Shown: one piece after another, positions 4,730 to 27,021 of the stretch
How the letters are laid out: every line of letters begins with the position of its first letter
Position numbering within the stretch: the stretch's first letter is position 1
Assembly: GCA_004292795.1 (NCBI GenBank)
Contig: RDXI01000014.1
Coordinates: forward strand, 1 to 38,076
Direction of reading: 5' to 3'
DNA: 38,076 nt
Origin: Bacteroidota bacterium
Lineage (GTDB): Bacteria > Bacteroidota > Bacteroidia > Cytophagales > Microscillaceae
Program-made: the position numbers and the translations under genes
The notes under the pieces: model-generated
Told to the model about the DNA's origin: nothing
The model's input: only the letters and a program-made list of their open reading frames with translations
Database searches by the model: none

Positions 4730-4770
4730 CTTGCCTACAAAACGCCCCTACTATGCACATAGTAGGCAAG
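4730..4770. repeat. Nested hairpins with inverted AGGCAAG motifs
   Basis: CTTGCCTAC (4730-4738) and GTAGGCAAG (4762-4770) form the outer arms. Inside, CCTACTATG (4747-4755) and CATAGTAGG (4758-4766) form a second, overlapping stem, so the two folds compete for 4762-4766. It lies between the DUF6169-like gene's stop and the LRR start. Confidence 0.7.
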
Positions 4771-11150: not shown

Positions 11151-11186
11151 AAAAGCAGGCAAGACTCTCGTCTTGCCTGCTTTTTT
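11151..11186. terminator. Bidirectional terminator built from two inverted AGGCAAG motifs
   Basis: GCAGGCAAGAC (11155-11165) pairs with GTCTTGCCTGC (11170-11180) across TCTC. It is flanked by A and T tracts, so it works in both directions between the convergent LysM and protease genes. Confidence 0.92.
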
Positions 11187-12981: not shown

Positions 12982-13020
12982 TGGGTAGGCAAGGCTACAG
13001 AAGGCAAGCTTGCCTACCCA
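12982..13020. repeat. Motif-pair hairpin between divergent genes
   Basis: TGGGTAGGCAAG (12982-12993) pairs with CTTGCCTACCCA (13009-13020). A third motif copy (AAGGCAAG, 13001-13008) in the loop makes GGCAAGCTTGCC a smaller palindrome. A fourth copy lies just beyond, at about 13040. The genes on both sides point away, so this cannot serve as their terminator. The rest of 12851-13133 holds only the two promoter elements. Confidence 0.75.
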
Positions 13021-13103
13021 AACGCCTTCGAACAGGGCAGGCAAGGCAGGGTTTATGATGTTTTTAACATCTCGCCTTATCACATTTTTTGTTCGAAAAG
13101 CGT

Positions 13104-17269: not shown

Positions 17270-17275
17270 TTTTTG

Positions 17276-17283
17276 TATCTTTG
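17276..17283 (+). promoter_or_regulatory. -7 promoter element 4 bases before the AAA/PD-(D/E)XK gene start
   Basis: TATCTTTG, then CGGT, then the ATG at 17288. It is a consensus element with essentially no room for a leader, so the mRNA is probably leaderless. It starts right after the acyltransferase stop. Confidence 0.6.
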
Positions 17284-17287
17284 CGGT

Positions 17288-18817
17288 ATGCAAAAATATG
17301 CTCTTGGAATACAGAATTTCCGTGAATTGCGCAAAGCGGATTACCTATATGTGGATAAAACCAAACTTATCAAGCAGTTGCTTGATAATAAATACTATTT
17401 CTATTCTCACCCGCGCAGGTTTGGTAAATCATTGCTTATCAGCACCTTAGAAGAAGTTTTTTTGGGCAGCCAAGCCTTGTTCGAAGGGCTTTGGATACAC
17501 GATAAAATCACATGGGAACAACACCCCGTTCTGAAGTTTAGCTTTGCTAAGTCCGATTTCAAAGAACTTGGCTTGAATCAATATTTTCTCAACTTACTTG
17601 ATGAACACGCCAAAATACACAACATAGAACTTGCCCAAACCACCGTGGGAGGCAAGATGCAAGCGCTTATCCAAACCCTGCACGACAAACACCAAAAAGG
17701 CGTGGTATTGCTCATAGATGAATACGACAAACCCATTGTAGAATACCTACGCAAAGACCAAATACCGCAAGCCGAAGAAAACCGCGAAATTATGCGCCAA
17801 TTCTACTCGCCTTTGAAAGACCTTGACGCTTGCCTGCGTTTTGTGTTCATCACAGGCGTTTCGAAGTTTAGCAAAGTGTCTATTTTTTCAGACCTGAATA
17901 ACCTGAAAGACATTACCCTTAGCCCTCCTTTTGCTACACTTTTGGGCTATACGGAGGAAGAAATGGAGCATTATTTCCACGAAAGAATAGCCCAAATAGC
18001 CCAAGAAAATAACCAAACTTATGAACAATGTTTTGATAAAGTGCGCCTTTGGTACAATGGTTACTCGTGGGACGGCAAACACAAGGTTTATAATCCTACC
18101 TCGATTTTGAACTTCTTGTATGATGGCTCATTCCAAAATTATTGGTTCGAAACGGGTACGCCTACGTTTTTGATAGAAATGTTGAGCCAAAAATTTGTAT
18201 ATAATATGGAAACTATAGAAACTTCCAGCAAACGCCTCAACGAATTCCGTTTTGAGGCTATAGATGATGTTACATTGCTTTTTCAAACAGGCTATCTCAC
18301 TATCAAAGAACAGGAGGACGGTATTTATACACTTGCCTACCCCAACCAAGAGGTACGCGATTCCATGACCAATTATCTTTTATCAGAGTACACGCGTCAA
18401 GAAGACCTCAAACCACTTGTGCGCAATATATACCGAGCCTTGCAAAAAAGAGATTTTGAAAAATTGATGGCTTGTTTGAATAGCTTGTTTGGCGAAATTC
18501 CGTATCAAATCTTTGATGCCAAACAAGAAAAATATTACCATGCGGTTATTTTCCTTACCTTCCGATTGCTTGGCTACTATGCACAGGCAGAACCCAGCGT
18601 AGGCAAGGGCAGGATTGATGCTGTAGTAGAAACGGCTGATGGCATTTTCATTTTTGAGTTCAAAGTGAATGGCACTGTGCAGGAAGCTATGGCGCAAATC
18701 CATAAAAACAAATACTACCAACGCTACACCAATTCCAACAAAGAAATCTGCTTATTGGCGGTGGCTTTCCAAAACAAAGAGATAGCAGGATATGAAATAG
18801 AAAAATTTGAAAAATGA
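17288..18817 (+). CDS. AAA-ATPase-like / PD-(D/E)XK nuclease-like protein
   Basis: 509 residues, beginning MQKYALGIQNFRELRKADYL. This is the AAA-ATPase_like plus PDDEXK_9 (DUF1703) architecture that occurs in many paralogous copies in Bacteroidota. The P-loop variant PRRFGKS is at residues 42-48, and Walker B LLIDEYDKP near 141-149. FITGVSKFSKVSIFSDLNNL and YNGYSW are family signatures of the middle region. The C-terminal nuclease-like core has GRIDAVV (Asp444) and FEFKVNG (Glu457, Lys459), so the catalytic triad looks intact. The biological role is unknown, and a link with DNA or mobile elements has been suggested from its spread. Its stop overlaps the recF start as ATGA. Confidence 0.88.
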   Translation: MQKYALGIQNFRELRKADYLYVDKTKLIKQLLDNKYYFYSHPRRFGKSLLISTLEEVFLGSQALFEGLWIHDKITWEQHPVLKFSFAKSDFKELGLNQYFLNLLDEHAKIHNIELAQTTVGGKMQALIQTLHDKHQKGVVLLIDEYDKPIVEYLRKDQIPQAEENREIMRQFYSPLKDLDACLRFVFITGVSKFSKVSIFSDLNNLKDITLSPPFATLLGYTEEEMEHYFHERIAQIAQENNQTYEQCFDKVRLWYNGYSWDGKHKVYNPTSILNFLYDGSFQNYWFETGTPTFLIEMLSQKFVYNMETIETSSKRLNEFRFEAIDDVTLLFQTGYLTIKEQEDGIYTLAYPNQEVRDSMTNYLLSEYTRQEDLKPLVRNIYRALQKRDFEKLMACLNSLFGEIPYQIFDAKQEKYYHAVIFLTFRLLGYYAQAEPSVGKGRIDAVVETADGIFIFEFKVNGTVQEAMAQIHKNKYYQRYTNSNKEICLLAVAFQNKEIAGYEIEKFEK

Positions 18818-21699: not shown

Positions 21700-24600
21700 A
21701 TGACAACTACCATTGAGAAAGAAAAGTTAGATGTGCTGTTTGAGGGGCTAAACTCTACTATCTACCTACAAGAAGATAGCAAGTTTGGTGTGCCTGTAGT
21801 TATCAAAGTGTCGAAGAACGAACACCCCTCTCCCGAACAAGTAGAGATTTTTTTTAATGAGTATGAGATTAGTCAATCGCTTGCTATACAAGGCGTTAGA
21901 AAGGTTTTTGAGAAAATAAGCTACGAAGGCTACCCTGCCCTCGTGTTTGAGTATGTGCATGGCGTTACGTTGTTAGAAGCATTTAAGGAGAGAGGACGCG
22001 GCATTAAGAATTTTTTGGAATTGGCGATAGAAGTAGCTGACATATTGAGCGATATTCATCAGTGCGGTGTGATACACAAGGACTTGAACCTGCGCAATAT
22101 ACTCGTAGAACAACCCACGAACAAAGTTAAAATCATAGATTTTGGGATTGCTACCCGTTTCAGCCTGAAGGCACACGACATGGGCAACCCCGAAAAACTC
22201 GAAGGTACGCTTGCCTACCTCTCGCCTGAACAAACGGGACGCATGAACCGCGTGGTCGACCATCGCTCCGATTTGTATTCGTTGGGCGTTATTTTCTATG
22301 AACTGTTGGCAGGCAAGTTGCCCTTTGAGTCGCAAGACCCGATGGAGCTTGTCCATGCACACCTCGCGCAAAAACCTGTCCCACTAACAGAGTTAGATTT
22401 TAGAATCTCGCCTGTTTTGTCCGATATTGTGCTGAAATTGTTGCGCAAAAATGCCGAAGACCGCTATCAGTCGGCAACGGGTTTGCGCATAGATTTGGAG
22501 GAGTGTTTGCGCCAATGGAACGAAGAACAACGCATTTTGGAGTTCCCACTTGCTACCCGCGATTTTTCAGGCAAGTTGCAAATTCCCCAAAAACTTTACG
22601 GCAGAGAGGAAGAAACCAACAATTTATTGCGTGCTTTTGATAGAATTTGTCAAGGTCCTACCGAACTTTGGTTCGTGTCGGGCTATTCTGGCGTAGGCAA
22701 GTCTGCCCTTATCCACGAATTGCACAAGCCCATTACCGAAAAAAGAGGCTACTATGTGGAAGGCAAGTTTGACCAATTCCAAAAAAGCGTACCGTATTAT
22801 GCTTGGATTCAAGCCTTCAAAAGTTGGGTAAACCAAGTTTTATCTGAAAGCACAGACCGCTTGCGTTTTTGGCGCAACAAGATACTCAAAGCCGTTGGGA
22901 GCAATGGCAAAGTGCTAACTGATGTCATTCCTGCCTTAGAGCATATCATAGGCGAGCAACCTGTCTTGCCTGAATTGGGCGCGACTGAAGCCCAAAACCG
23001 CTTCAATTATGTGTTTCAAAGTTTTGTGAATATCATTTCCAAAAAAGACCACCCACTTCTTATCTTCATTGATGATTGGCAATGGGCAGACTCGGCTTCG
23101 CTGGAGTTGTTAAAAATCATTTTGGAAAATTATGAACAAGACTACTTGCTCATCTTGGGTGCGTACCGAAGCAATGAAGTTACAGACACGCACCCGCTTT
23201 CGTTGGCATTGGAGGAAATGGAGCGTCAGAATATCCAAATCAATGATGTAAAACTCAAAAATTTGAGCAACGAAGATGTGTTGGAATTGCTCAAAGATAC
23301 CTTGCACCCCACTACGCAAACCATTCAAGAACTTTCAAACCTTGTTTTTACCAAAACACAAGGCAATCCTTTCTTTGTCAATCAAATTCTGAAGTCGTTT
23401 TATGAAGACGATTTGCTGACGTTTGATTGGGACTCTACGAGTTGGCAGTGGGACATGGAAAAGCTCCTTACCACGAGCATTACGGACAATGTGGTGGAAT
23501 TGATGACAAGCAAAGTTCAGAAACTACCCATAGGCACACAAGAAGTTTTGAAACTTGCCTCCTGCATAGGAAGCCGTTTCAATGTAAGTGTGTTGAGTCC
23601 TTTGTACGAAGAATTGTATCAAGAAATGCCTCGCTCTGCCTTGAATAGCCTTGAGCCTGCTTTGCTCGAAGGAATGTTGATTCCTTTGCGCGAGGATTAT
23701 CAGTTTGCGCATGACCGCATACAACAAGCGGTGTATGCTATGCTGACCGAGCCAGAACGAAAAGGCGTGCATTTGCAAATAGGCAAGGTGTTGGTAAATC
23801 GTGTGCCAAAGGCTCTGCACGAAGAATATTTGTTCGACATTGTGCATCATTGGAACGAAGGCATCGATTTTATTCACGACCTTACGGATAAGCAGTTTTT
23901 GGCTCGCCTGAATGTGGAGGCAGGCAAGAAGGCTCGCCTATCGTCTGCGTATGCCCCTGCATTTACGTACTTGCGCACTGCTATCAAACTTTTGCCCCTC
24001 GATATTTGGGATACAGATTATGATTTTGCGTTGGAAGTGTATTGTGAAATGTTGCAAGTTGCCTTCTTGTATGGCGAACTCGACATGGCGCAATATTACA
24101 TCAACATTGTGATAGAAAAAGGCAGAAACATCTTGGACAAGATGCCCGCCTACGAAACTGTGATGCAATACCACATTGCACAAGGCGACAATCAAGCCGC
24201 TATTGAGGCAGGTTTGGAAGTGGTTACAGCCTTGAAAATCACGCTCACGCGCTTTCCTTTGCCCGACATTCCTGTAGAAGACCTTTATAACTTGCCTGAC
24301 ATTGAGGACGAAAAGCGCAAGGCGGGTATGGAAATTTTGGATAGCGTCATCACGCCTGCTTGGGCTTCGAACCCTGAACTTTTCCAAAAAATCACCTACA
24401 CAATGGTCAATATTTCTGTAGCGTATGGCAACTCACCTTCGGCGTGTGTGGGCTATGCGTTTTATGGCGGGCTGTTGTGTGGCAAATTGGGCAATATAGA
24501 ATTAGGCTATAAGTTTGGCAAATTGGCAGTCGCTCTCTTGGATAAGTATGATGCGCGTTTTTTCAAATCGAAGGTCGAAAACTTGTACCTTTCTACTGTG

Positions 24601-27021
24601 ATGCACTGGAAAGAGCCTCTGCGCGACACACGCAAACGCTACTTTGATGCTATCCAAATAGGTATGGAAACAGGCGAGATTGAATTTGCGTGCTACAACA
24701 TAGCCGAGTCAAGCTTGTATCAATTCCTGATGGGCTTGCCTTTGGAAGCCTTAGCTACTAAATACGCGAAGGAAAGAAGCCTTATCCAACAACACAAGCA
24801 AGAATTTCACGAAAACTACATAGCTTCATTCCAGCAACTTATTGCAGAACTTTTGTCAGATAAACCTACCAAACCTACACAATTAGTAGGCGAGTTTTTT
24901 GATGAAGACTGCTCCTTGCCTATTTTTGAGCATGAAGGACAGCTTACGCTTAGCTTTGTGGCATACCAAGCGAAGTATTTGCTTGCCTTCCTTTTCAAAG
25001 ACTACCGCAGGGCGTACAAATATGCACAAGAGGCAGACAAACATTTTGATGGCGTTACGGGTATGGCGTTTGTGCCGTTCCATGCGTGTATTTCTTCGCT
25101 CATTATGGTAGGCATTTTTCCTGAAATCACTACAGAAGAAAAGCCTAAAATCTTAGATAAAATCACTGACAACCTGCATAAACTCAAAGGTTGGGGCAAA
25201 GCAAACCCCGCCAACTATCAACACCTTGCCGACCTTGTGCAAGCCGAGCTATATCGCTTGTCGGGTATGGGTTCGAAGGCAATGGATCATTATGATTTGG
25301 CAATAGATAATGCTCGCCTCGAAAGGTTTTTGTGGGTGGAGGCTATCGCCAATGAACTCGCGGCAGAGTTTTATTTCGCACAAGGCAAGGAAAAAATAGG
25401 CAAGGCTTATCTACAAGACGCTTCGCACCGCTACCAACTTTGGGGCGCGGAGCGCAAATTGATAGACCTCGAACAACGCTACGATAAATTTGTAAAAAAC
25501 CGCTCCAATGCGAGCAATCCGCTTACCTCTACCACGCAAACCATCATAGGCGGAGGCGCGACCTCTACAGGTAGCAACAACAATCTGGACATGAACAGCA
25601 TCATCAAGGCTTCGCAAACGCTTTCTGGCGAGGTAAAACTTGAAAGTCTGTTGCAGAAGATGATGCACATTGTGATAGAAAATGCAGGCGCAGAACGCGG
25701 TTTGTTTGTCTTGCCTGATGATGATGGTATGTGGGTAATACAAGCAGAATGTACGGCAGGGAGCGAGTTTGTGGAATGTTTGAAAGCCATTCCTATCGAA
25801 AAAGCTAACGGTGTGAGTGATATTCCGAAGCTATCAAGCGAAGCGATTTATTATGCAGTGCGCACCCGCGAAACGTTGGTGTTGAATGATGCCTCGAATG
25901 AAAGAAGCATCATAGGTCCCACGTATATACAAAAAGTAGAGCCTAAGTCTATTTTGTGTATGCCTTTGTTGTATCAGGGCAAAATTTCGGGTATCTTATA
26001 CTTGGAAAATAACCTCACTACAGACGCTTTCACGCCAGACCGCCTCGAAGTATTGGAGATTTTGACTTCGCAAATTACGATTTCTATTGAAAATGCCTTG
26101 CTATACGAAAATCTCGAAGGCAAGGTAGCAGAGCGCACTGCCGAAGTGTTCGCATCTAAGGCTATCATCGAGAAGAAGAACGAGGACATCACGTCCAGCA
26201 TCAACTACGCCAAGCGTATCCAAGATGCCAGCCTTCCACGCATGGAAAAAATCAAGAAAATGCTTCCGCAAAGTTTCTTGTTATTCAAACCACGCGAAAT
26301 AGTGTCAGGTGATTTTTATTGGTGTACGCAAACCGAACCCAAGCCTATTTATGACGAGGTTACGGAGTACGAACAACAACGCCAAACCGTTATAGGTTTC
26401 GAGCCTGCCAAAGTCTTGATAACAGCCTCCGACTGCACAGGACATGGCGTGCCGGGCGCGTTTATGTCATTGATAGGCAATAATTTATTGAATGAAATTG
26501 TGATTTCAAAGGGCATTACCTCGCCTGAAATTATCCTTCAAGAACTGCACAAGGGCGTAAGAAACGCGCTCCAACAAGCCGAAACGGACAACAAAGATGG
26601 CATGGACATGGCGTTGTGTGTGGTTGATGAGCAACATAAAATAGTGGAATATGCAGGGGCGAAAAACCCGCTTATCTATGTTCAGAATGGGCAATTATTC
26701 GAGATAAAAGCAGACAAAATGCCTATTGGCGGTTCGCAAAAAGAAAAAGAGCGCACTTTCACGAAGCACGTTATCCCTGTCAATTCGCCTACTACGTTCT
26801 ATGTGTTTACTGATGGTTTCCAAGACCAATTCGGCGGACCTGATGGGCGCAAATTTATGATAAAATACATGAAAGAATTGTTTTTGGAAATCCACAACAA
26901 ACCTATGGAAGAACAGCGCAGTGTGCTAAAACACGCTATAGAAGAATGGATGACCTATCACCCTCACGAACCACAACGCCAAATAGATGATATTTTGGTA
27001 ATGGGTTTTCGAGTGGGGTAA
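21700..27021 (+). CDS. Ser/Thr kinase - AAA ATPase - GAF - SpoIIE/PP2C phosphatase, giant signalling protein
   Basis: 1773 residues with no signal peptide, likely cytoplasmic. Residues 1-270 are a Ser/Thr kinase: Lys36 in VVIKV, HKDLNLRN (126-133; HRD is HKD), DFG (147-149), then GTLAYLSPEQTGRMNR and HRSDLYSLGV. There is no clear Gly-rich loop. Residues ~295-560 are a large AAA/STAND-type ATPase with Walker A GYSGVGKS (328-335) and Walker B FIDDWQWAD (456-464). About 560-1280 is helical, TPR-like. GAF lies at ~1310-1470 (SLLQKMMHIVIENAGAERG) and a short coiled coil at ~1475-1520. The C-terminal SpoIIE/PP2C domain has SGDFYW (Asp1538), SDCTGHGVPGAFMS (Asp1578), DGMDMALCVVD and FTDGFQDQFGG (Asp1705), so the metal ligands are present. 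Kinase and phosphatase in one chain suggest a switch protein, perhaps acting with the SiaB-like kinase nearby. Confidence 0.92.
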   Translation: MTTTIEKEKLDVLFEGLNSTIYLQEDSKFGVPVVIKVSKNEHPSPEQVEIFFNEYEISQSLAIQGVRKVFEKISYEGYPALVFEYVHGVTLLEAFKERGRGIKNFLELAIEVADILSDIHQCGVIHKDLNLRNILVEQPTNKVKIIDFGIATRFSLKAHDMGNPEKLEGTLAYLSPEQTGRMNRVVDHRSDLYSLGVIFYELLAGKLPFESQDPMELVHAHLAQKPVPLTELDFRISPVLSDIVLKLLRKNAEDRYQSATGLRIDLEECLRQWNEEQRILEFPLATRDFSGKLQIPQKLYGREEETNNLLRAFDRICQGPTELWFVSGYSGVGKSALIHELHKPITEKRGYYVEGKFDQFQKSVPYYAWIQAFKSWVNQVLSESTDRLRFWRNKILKAVGSNGKVLTDVIPALEHIIGEQPVLPELGATEAQNRFNYVFQSFVNIISKKDHPLLIFIDDWQWADSASLELLKIILENYEQDYLLILGAYRSNEVTDTHPLSLALEEMERQNIQINDVKLKNLSNEDVLELLKDTLHPTTQTIQELSNLVFTKTQGNPFFVNQILKSFYEDDLLTFDWDSTSWQWDMEKLLTTSITDNVVELMTSKVQKLPIGTQEVLKLASCIGSRFNVSVLSPLYEELYQEMPRSALNSLEPALLEGMLIPLREDYQFAHDRIQQAVYAMLTEPERKGVHLQIGKVLVNRVPKALHEEYLFDIVHHWNEGIDFIHDLTDKQFLARLNVEAGKKARLSSAYAPAFTYLRTAIKLLPLDIWDTDYDFALEVYCEMLQVAFLYGELDMAQYYINIVIEKGRNILDKMPAYETVMQYHIAQGDNQAAIEAGLEVVTALKITLTRFPLPDIPVEDLYNLPDIEDEKRKAGMEILDSVITPAWASNPELFQKITYTMVNISVAYGNSPSACVGYAFYGGLLCGKLGNIELGYKFGKLAVALLDKYDARFFKSKVENLYLSTVMHWKEPLRDTRKRYFDAIQIGMETGEIEFACYNIAESSLYQFLMGLPLEALATKYAKERSLIQQHKQEFHENYIASFQQLIAELLSDKPTKPTQLVGEFFDEDCSLPIFEHEGQLTLSFVAYQAKYLLAFLFKDYRRAYKYAQEADKHFDGVTGMAFVPFHACISSLIMVGIFPEITTEEKPKILDKITDNLHKLKGWGKANPANYQHLADLVQAELYRLSGMGSKAMDHYDLAIDNARLERFLWVEAIANELAAEFYFAQGKEKIGKAYLQDASHRYQLWGAERKLIDLEQRYDKFVKNRSNASNPLTSTTQTIIGGGATSTGSNNNLDMNSIIKASQTLSGEVKLESLLQKMMHIVIENAGAERGLFVLPDDDGMWVIQAECTAGSEFVECLKAIPIEKANGVSDIPKLSSEAIYYAVRTRETLVLNDASNERSIIGPTYIQKVEPKSILCMPLLYQGKISGILYLENNLTTDAFTPDRLEVLEILTSQITISIENALLYENLEGKVAERTAEVFASKAIIEKKNEDITSSINYAKRIQDASLPRMEKIKKMLPQSFLLFKPREIVSGDFYWCTQTEPKPIYDEVTEYEQQRQTVIGFEPAKVLITASDCTGHGVPGAFMSLIGNNLLNEIVISKGITSPEIILQELHKGVRNALQQAETDNKDGMDMALCVVDEQHKIVEYAGAKNPLIYVQNGQLFEIKADKMPIGGSQKEKERTFTKHVIPVNSPTTFYVFTDGFQDQFGGPDGRKFMIKYMKELFLEIHNKPMEEQRSVLKHAIEEWMTYHPHEPQRQIDDILVMGFRVG

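Follow-up and report, generated by a model that had tools for sequence, protein, structure and literature searches.

A highly iterated DNA word, not codon choice, underlies a glycine-lysine codon pattern in two genomes of one Microscillaceae genus

Why should the choice between two lysine codons depend on the base that stands in front of the preceding glycine codon? The question is raised by a gene at positions 21700-27021, forward strand, of the window, by which we mean the whole stretch of 38,076 nucleotides analysed here, from an uncultured bacterium of the family Microscillaceae (order Cytophagales, Bacteroidota). The gene codes for a protein of 1773 aa with kinase, AAA_16, GAF and SpoIIE domains, as assigned by Pfam. 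The earlier note on this DNA had counted in it 14 Gly-Lys pairs written as GGC plus Lys, with AAG after an A and AAA after a T or a G, and we recovered all of them. The nine pairs preceded by A all use AAG and complete the word AGGCAAG. Located on the forward strand by a word search with a codon check, they start with (GC)A-GGC-AAG at 22311-22317 and continue at 22569-22575, 22695-22701 (with the full GT flank, GTAGGCAAG), 22761-22767, 23781-23787, 23922-23928 (with a GC flank), 25383-25389 and 25398-25404 (two sites within 25383-25404), the last one lying at 26118-26124. The five pairs preceded by T or G, at 22905, 24480, 24516, 25194 and 25977, all use AAA, which is also the usual codon at the genome level (71% AAA, 29% AAG), as the note had said of other Lys codons in the window. 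The same word search found an antisense copy in the gene at 24291-24297 (reverse strand), where the coding strand reads CTTGCCT in another frame and encodes no Gly-Lys. The gene carries 26 AGGCRAG words, 12 sense and 14 antisense, and because these 14 are antisense a focus on Gly-Lys is too narrow. The codon rule of the note is therefore real, but its heptamer is part of a longer, degenerate unit, of which codon choice is one visible consequence.

Across the whole window, with genes called by the same ORF heuristic as below, A-GGC is followed by 37 AAG and 6 AAA, and GGC in other contexts by 2 AAG and 12 AAA; exceptions thus exist, as the note had recorded, although they are somewhat more numerous than the two AGGCAAA that it listed. 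It had proposed a Fisher tabulation of the Lys codons after GGC, with equal use of AAA and AAG after A-GGC and after other GGC as the refuting outcome. We made this comparison on samples, using heuristic gene calls (longest non-overlapping ORFs). In this genome (G000; 205 CDS in 292 kb, not the whole genome) the counts were 270 AAG and 45 AAA after A-GGC vs 28 and 93 in other contexts (p=3e-35), and in sampled genes of its one sequenced genus-mate (G001) they were 256 and 79 after A-GGC vs 27 and 101 after C-, G- or T-GGC (p=8e-28). Equal use is clearly ruled out in the sampled genes.

The codon pattern understates the phenomenon, whose cause is a highly iterated DNA word and not codon choice. 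The window holds 124 copies of AGGCAAG vs 5.7 expected, and shuffles never gave more than 13. In this genome (4.56 Mb) there are 12,514 copies, that is one per 364 bp or 2,740 per Mb, with 149 copies of the reversed control word, and the genus-mate (5.4 Mb) has 10,883, about 2,000 per Mb. Enrichment over the dinucleotide expectation is 17-fold in the 292 kb of the first genome and 13-fold in 367 kb of the second. The restriction to this lineage was observed directly: among about 450 Bacteroidota genomes sampled, AGGCAAG never exceeded about 0.3 per kb beyond the two genus members. Raw counts in family relatives are a few-fold above those of the reversed control, but a family-wide word was rejected, with dinucleotide- and codon-corrected ratios in relatives mostly between 1 and 2; this raw excess is compositional, because the observed counts match the dinucleotide and codon-usage expectations. 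The nearest named relatives, as judged by a carB-like gene, are metagenome-assembled genomes labelled Microscillaceae, Cytophagales or Bacteroidetes. A pattern scan for viral contigs with dense words returned, among the matches listed, only scattered ones, at most 1.8 per kb and in short stretches. Iterated words are already known from cyanobacteria, Neisseria and Haemophilus. Our literature search found no description of words of this kind in Bacteroidota; AGGCAAG itself appeared in one unrelated paper, and nothing was found on such a word in Microscillaceae.

In order to separate the word from its coding context, we counted, for each of the six frame and strand placements, the sites where the amino acids permit it, the expectation being taken from codon usage. 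All six placements are enriched, with observed/expected ratios of 6-15 in this genome and 5-14 in the genus-mate and values near 1 in relatives. Single placements are occupied at 28-66% of the permissive sites, and pooled occupancy reaches 54% and 44% in the two genomes vs 1-6% in the family samples. The word is also denser between genes than within them (3.6 vs 2.8 per kb in this genome, 2.7 vs 2.2 in the genus-mate). Shuffled words in this genome mostly give ratios near or below 1, and the higher ones share a long piece with the motif. The inference in the note that selection or some process acts on the DNA word itself is thus upheld by the six placements, the intergenic enrichment and the shuffled words, for two species of one genus only. 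A preference for the codon pair GGC-AAG after a codon ending in A, whether translational or not, or the steering of codons by avoided restriction sites, could have produced the original observation, which concerned one codon pair, and restriction-site avoidance is indeed very strong in both genomes. GGCC, GATC, CCGG and CTAG are nearly missing from them (0.01-0.06 of expectation), TTAA is avoided (0.2-0.27 of expectation), and GCWGC, GGATG and GTCTC are avoided in this genome as well. However, the other five placements, which encode other peptides, are also enriched, the intergenic word is dense, and AGGCAAG reaches 17 times expectation where TGGCAAG stays at 1.0, with no avoided palindrome in either. 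We consider explanations of this class scarcely credible; a codon-pair or codon-usage cause is contradicted by the antisense and intergenic enrichment.

How do the copies arise? The note had left room for a copying process, and a small mobile or intergenic repeat carrying the word and inserting copies could be imagined, since the intergenic inverted pairs resemble REP-like hairpins. In the carB-like gene, however, several words lie on residues that are invariant in 39 orthologs (e.g. VLP, LAS and VGE), and they therefore arise by point substitution, which makes insertion of copies unlikely. Conservation also falls off a few bases from the core, and coding copies are single, occur in all frames at protein-permissive positions and come without insertions. 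A mobile repeat is thus contradicted for the coding copies, which form the majority, and as a general cause it can be set aside almost completely.

Between genes, word pairs within 40 bp are inverted rather than direct (26:4 in this genome, 31:1 in the genus-mate), and the word reaches its highest density where neighbouring genes converge (6.2 and 3.5 per kb). The window contains several such arrangements, for which no strand applies: an inverted pair, AGGCAAGACTCTCATCTTGCCT, found by word search at 349-370, with the look of a terminator hairpin; a pair CTTGCCT ... AGGCAAG at 4730-4770; at 11157-11178, in the gap between convergent genes, a pair, AGGCAAGACTCTCGTCTTGCCT, with a T-rich stretch after it; and a cluster at 13002-13045 in which a perfect palindrome, AGGCAAGCTTGCCT, is joined by a third copy. 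Judged on sequence alone, shapes such as GGCAGGCAAGGAATTTTCCTTGCCTGCTTTTTA look like intrinsic terminators. These pairs do not discriminate between causes, because any driven asymmetric word is expected to enter hairpin stems, and the intergenic excess would likewise be expected of any such word. The hairpin at 349-370 is flanked at 303-330 and 386-412 by two related intergenic palindromes of REP-like appearance, GCGTAGGGGTTGCAACCCCTACGC and GCGTAGGGTTTGAAACCCTACGC.

The unit that is actually iterated extends beyond the heptamer and is degenerate: it reads GYAGGCRAG in this genome and is GGYAGGCAAGG-like in the genus-mate. Among the one-base variants in this genome, only AGGCGAG matches the 17-fold enrichment of AGGCAAG, while in the genus-mate it is enriched just 5-fold; AGGTAAG is mildly enriched, and most other variants are near expectation. 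The flanks prefer G at -2 and C or T at -1 in this genome, and GG at -3 and -2, C or T at -1 and a G after the core in the genus-mate. Permissive sites are occupied at 80-89% with G[CT] at -2 and -1, and at 3-14% with C at -2, a contrast to which the joint evolution of flank and core may contribute. AGGCAAG/CTTGCCT is asymmetric, its flanks give no dyad, and conservation drops within a few bases of the core. Two candidate processes were rejected here. Active removal of near-misses was suggested by an apparent depletion of AGGCCAG and AGGCTAG, but both genomes avoid GGCC and CTAG throughout, and a very-short-patch-like T-to-C repair conflicts with the enrichment, not depletion, of AGGTAAG. The sample of this genome also contains second-tier enriched words for which the main motif gives no obvious account, namely AGGCGCG/ACGCGCCT (5-8-fold) and CTATCAA/TTGATAG (about 5-fold).

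The word pushes the proteome modestly but broadly. Peptides that it can encode (GK, LP, LA.,.CL, [KQE]A[RS] and RQ.) show observed/expected ratios of 1.1-2.1 in the genus vs 0.8-1.2 in relatives, and most exceed their reversed controls, though RQ. in this genome does not (1.28 vs 1.26). Along 32 kb of alignment between the two genomes (77% identity), 51-59% of the words are shared vs 22% for an average 7-mer, a level that some A-rich 7-mers also reach. Where the amino acids of permissive sites are conserved, 34 sites are occupied in both genomes, 16 only in this one, 5 only in the genus-mate and 36 in neither. The six genes under 30% GC in the genus-mate carry the word at 0.13 per kb, which fits recent acquisition on the evidence of these six genes only. 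An AAA-ATPase_like/PDDEXK_9 protein gene at 17273-18817 of the window has several homologous places in the genus-mate, on contigs C553, C410, C405, C398 and C699.

Two further properties concern the copies as a population. Their orientation shows no heterogeneity across contigs (p=0.77 and 0.61 in the two genomes) and no association with GC skew, so no strand polarity was detected, and within-gene permutations revealed no departure from random spacing and no diminishing return for near neighbours; an apparent positive neighbour effect disappeared once genes were compared with themselves. A gain in odds of 10-20-fold, roughly constant in coding and intergenic DNA, leads us to infer that each word carries a scaled advantage close to ln(10-20), or roughly 2.3-3. 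A Chi-like signal in recombination or chromosome handling, protecting self DNA in break processing or serving segregation, would be in keeping with a short, asymmetric, over-represented word, and the near-complete avoidance of several restriction palindromes suggests frequent cutting, against which Chi-type words protect self DNA. The lack of polarity and of a GC skew link, and the lack of a diminishing return for close neighbours, speak against it, as does the occupancy known for Chi, which is far below that of AGGCAAG. We therefore regard a Chi-like role as improbable.

We are nearly certain that a site-autonomous drive acts at the level of DNA. What kind of force this is, and whether a protein reads the word, are matters of inference. 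As the sequence statistics support, it acts at each DNA site, whatever the frame, strand, coding status or neighbours, and fixes point mutations that create or keep the word; synonymous codons spell it wherever the protein allows, and the peptides it can encode become commoner. The most likely source, by inference only, is a sequence-preferring recognition of self DNA in natural transformation or homologous recombination, a step for which there are no uptake or population data; DNA bearing the word would be taken up or recombined more often, and the word would spread by molecular drive, as uptake sequences do in Neisseriaceae and Pasteurellaceae. A reader protein other than the type IV pilus receptors of these families would be needed. 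Taken as a whole, a drive toward GYAGGCRAG through self-DNA recognition in uptake or recombination is a tentative proposal to which we give somewhat less than even weight, its cause being inferred and not demonstrated.

An uptake-type drive is consistent with an asymmetric word, graded flanks, differing dialects and inverted pairs; the lack of strand polarity and the very low density in genes under 30% GC also speak for it. Graded occupancy is as expected of affinity and not of a strict cut-or-methylate site, and the difference in flanks between the two genomes is, by analogy, like the dialects of uptake sequences. When transformed, Riemerella columbina, a member of the same phylum, reportedly favours its own DNA (PMC7965970). 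ComEC is present in the genus-mate and in relatives and was not found in the 82%-complete genome studied here; it is uninformative, because it is ordinary, family-wide equipment. The absence of pilus ATPases, the high density and the lack of a spacing effect conflict with an uptake-type drive. No type IV pilus or type II secretion ATPase (PF00437) was found above the cut-off in 15 family genomes, including both of the genus, in a search that covered ATPases only and left receptors out; 13 of 14 control genomes passed the same cut-off. Since the requirement for a pilus ATPase is unmet, the word is not filed with the DUS or USS. The missing spacing effect counts against uptake because selection acting per fragment should relax as soon as one copy is present.

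Elhai reportedly proposed a drive by mark-coupled repair or replication for the highly iterated palindromes (HIPs) of cyanobacteria, and a comparable process could operate here if a methyltransferase, for example a type IIG enzyme marking one strand of an asymmetric site, recognised AGGCRAG and coupled repair or replication biased fixation. The drive is site-autonomous, and the fully degenerate R, with AGGCAAG and AGGCGAG equally enriched in this genome, is typical of methylase sites. The two genomes carry many Eco57I-type enzymes (20 and 15) and have in common a full-length type IIG restriction-methyltransferase (L369:127-3270 in G000, L370:2-3301 in G001) with 69-71% identity, rising to 86-88% over residues 600-900, within which the specificity part falls. 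This enzyme is a candidate reader, but its target is unidentified and no data tie it to the word. AGGCAAG alone, at 2,740 per Mb, stands at the upper limit of the 300-2,700 per Mb given for HIP1 (PMC4390886). On the other side, the HIPs listed by Elhai are palindromic, unlike AGGCAAG; a strict methylase site would not be expected to show graded flanks at -3 to -1; AGGCGAG reaches only 5-fold enrichment in the genus-mate; and relatives that lack the word commonly have such enzymes too, one of them (G007) with a C-terminal half of 61% identity. A HIP1-like origin, the main rival of the uptake reading, is possible, but we find it doubtful. Heavy restriction pressure and a self-word could, we infer, be two sides of one foreign-DNA barrier.

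Other words were noticed in other genomes. In Microscillaceae bacterium Prado074 (G004, another genus; 6.8 Mb; loci L065 and L335-L354) there are 6,128 TGATWATCA sites vs 52-396 in other family genomes. They form the core of a palindrome of roughly 25 bp, TAAnTnnYTGATWATCARnnAnTTA, which occupies most intergenic gaps of at least 40 bp and lies at variable distances from start and stop codons. Because it is found mainly between genes (3.0 vs 0.26 per kb in genes), this element is of another kind than AGGCAAG, but with it a second Microscillaceae genus is seen to have an amplified word. In Pontibacter, AAGTATA (L092 and L054) and also AACTATA (L092) stand at about 12-13 times expectation; with the frames unchecked, either codon context or a further iterated word could be the reason.

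If our reading is correct, a further independent lineage has a genome dominated by one short word, after the cyanobacterial HIPs and the proteobacterial uptake sequences; this word lacks symmetry, comes close to saturation and belongs to a phylum in which we found no earlier description of such a case. With simple statistics in every frame, it gauges the strength of a DNA-level drive against codon choice and protein constraint, and its presence in two genomes of the genus and absence from the sampled family relatives offers a route to the reader protein. It is also a warning: when codons or motifs are analysed in such genomes, a DNA word can pass for a signal of translation or of the protein. 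We can only suggest, as a rather unlikely possibility, that in a genus lacking pilus ATPases an unknown self-DNA recognition reading GYAGGCRAG has rewritten the entire genome, with 80-89% of the favoured permissive sites filled, and shifted the proteome, and that other genera of the family may have words of their own.

Which known system does the word resemble? With Chi and KOPS it shares a short, asymmetric, over-represented word, but it lacks any polarity and its saturation is far higher. With the DUS of Neisseriaceae and the USS of Pasteurellaceae it shares an asymmetric word of about 9-12 bases, present in genes as well as outside them, whose core is strong and whose flanks are softer, the lack of chromosome polarity, terminator-like inverted pairs, species dialects and low levels in some AT-rich genes. 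Neisseria uptake sequences occur about once per 1,150 nt and form terminator-like intergenic inverted pairs (PMC2397512), whereas AGGCRAG exceeds this density several times over (about 4 per kb), shows no spacing effect, belongs to another phylum, in whose Microscillaceae no type IV pilus ATPase accompanies it, and has an uptake role that is inferred only. The cyanobacterial HIPs are palindromes that correlation links to specific methylases, whereas AGGCRAG is asymmetric, has graded flanks and has so far been linked to no methylase. Of the HIP criteria, it fails that of the palindrome and satisfies that of hundreds to thousands of copies per Mb. With HIP1 and the alternative HIPs it has in common this density, the presence both in and between genes, a largely lineage-specific distribution and alternative words in sister lineages.
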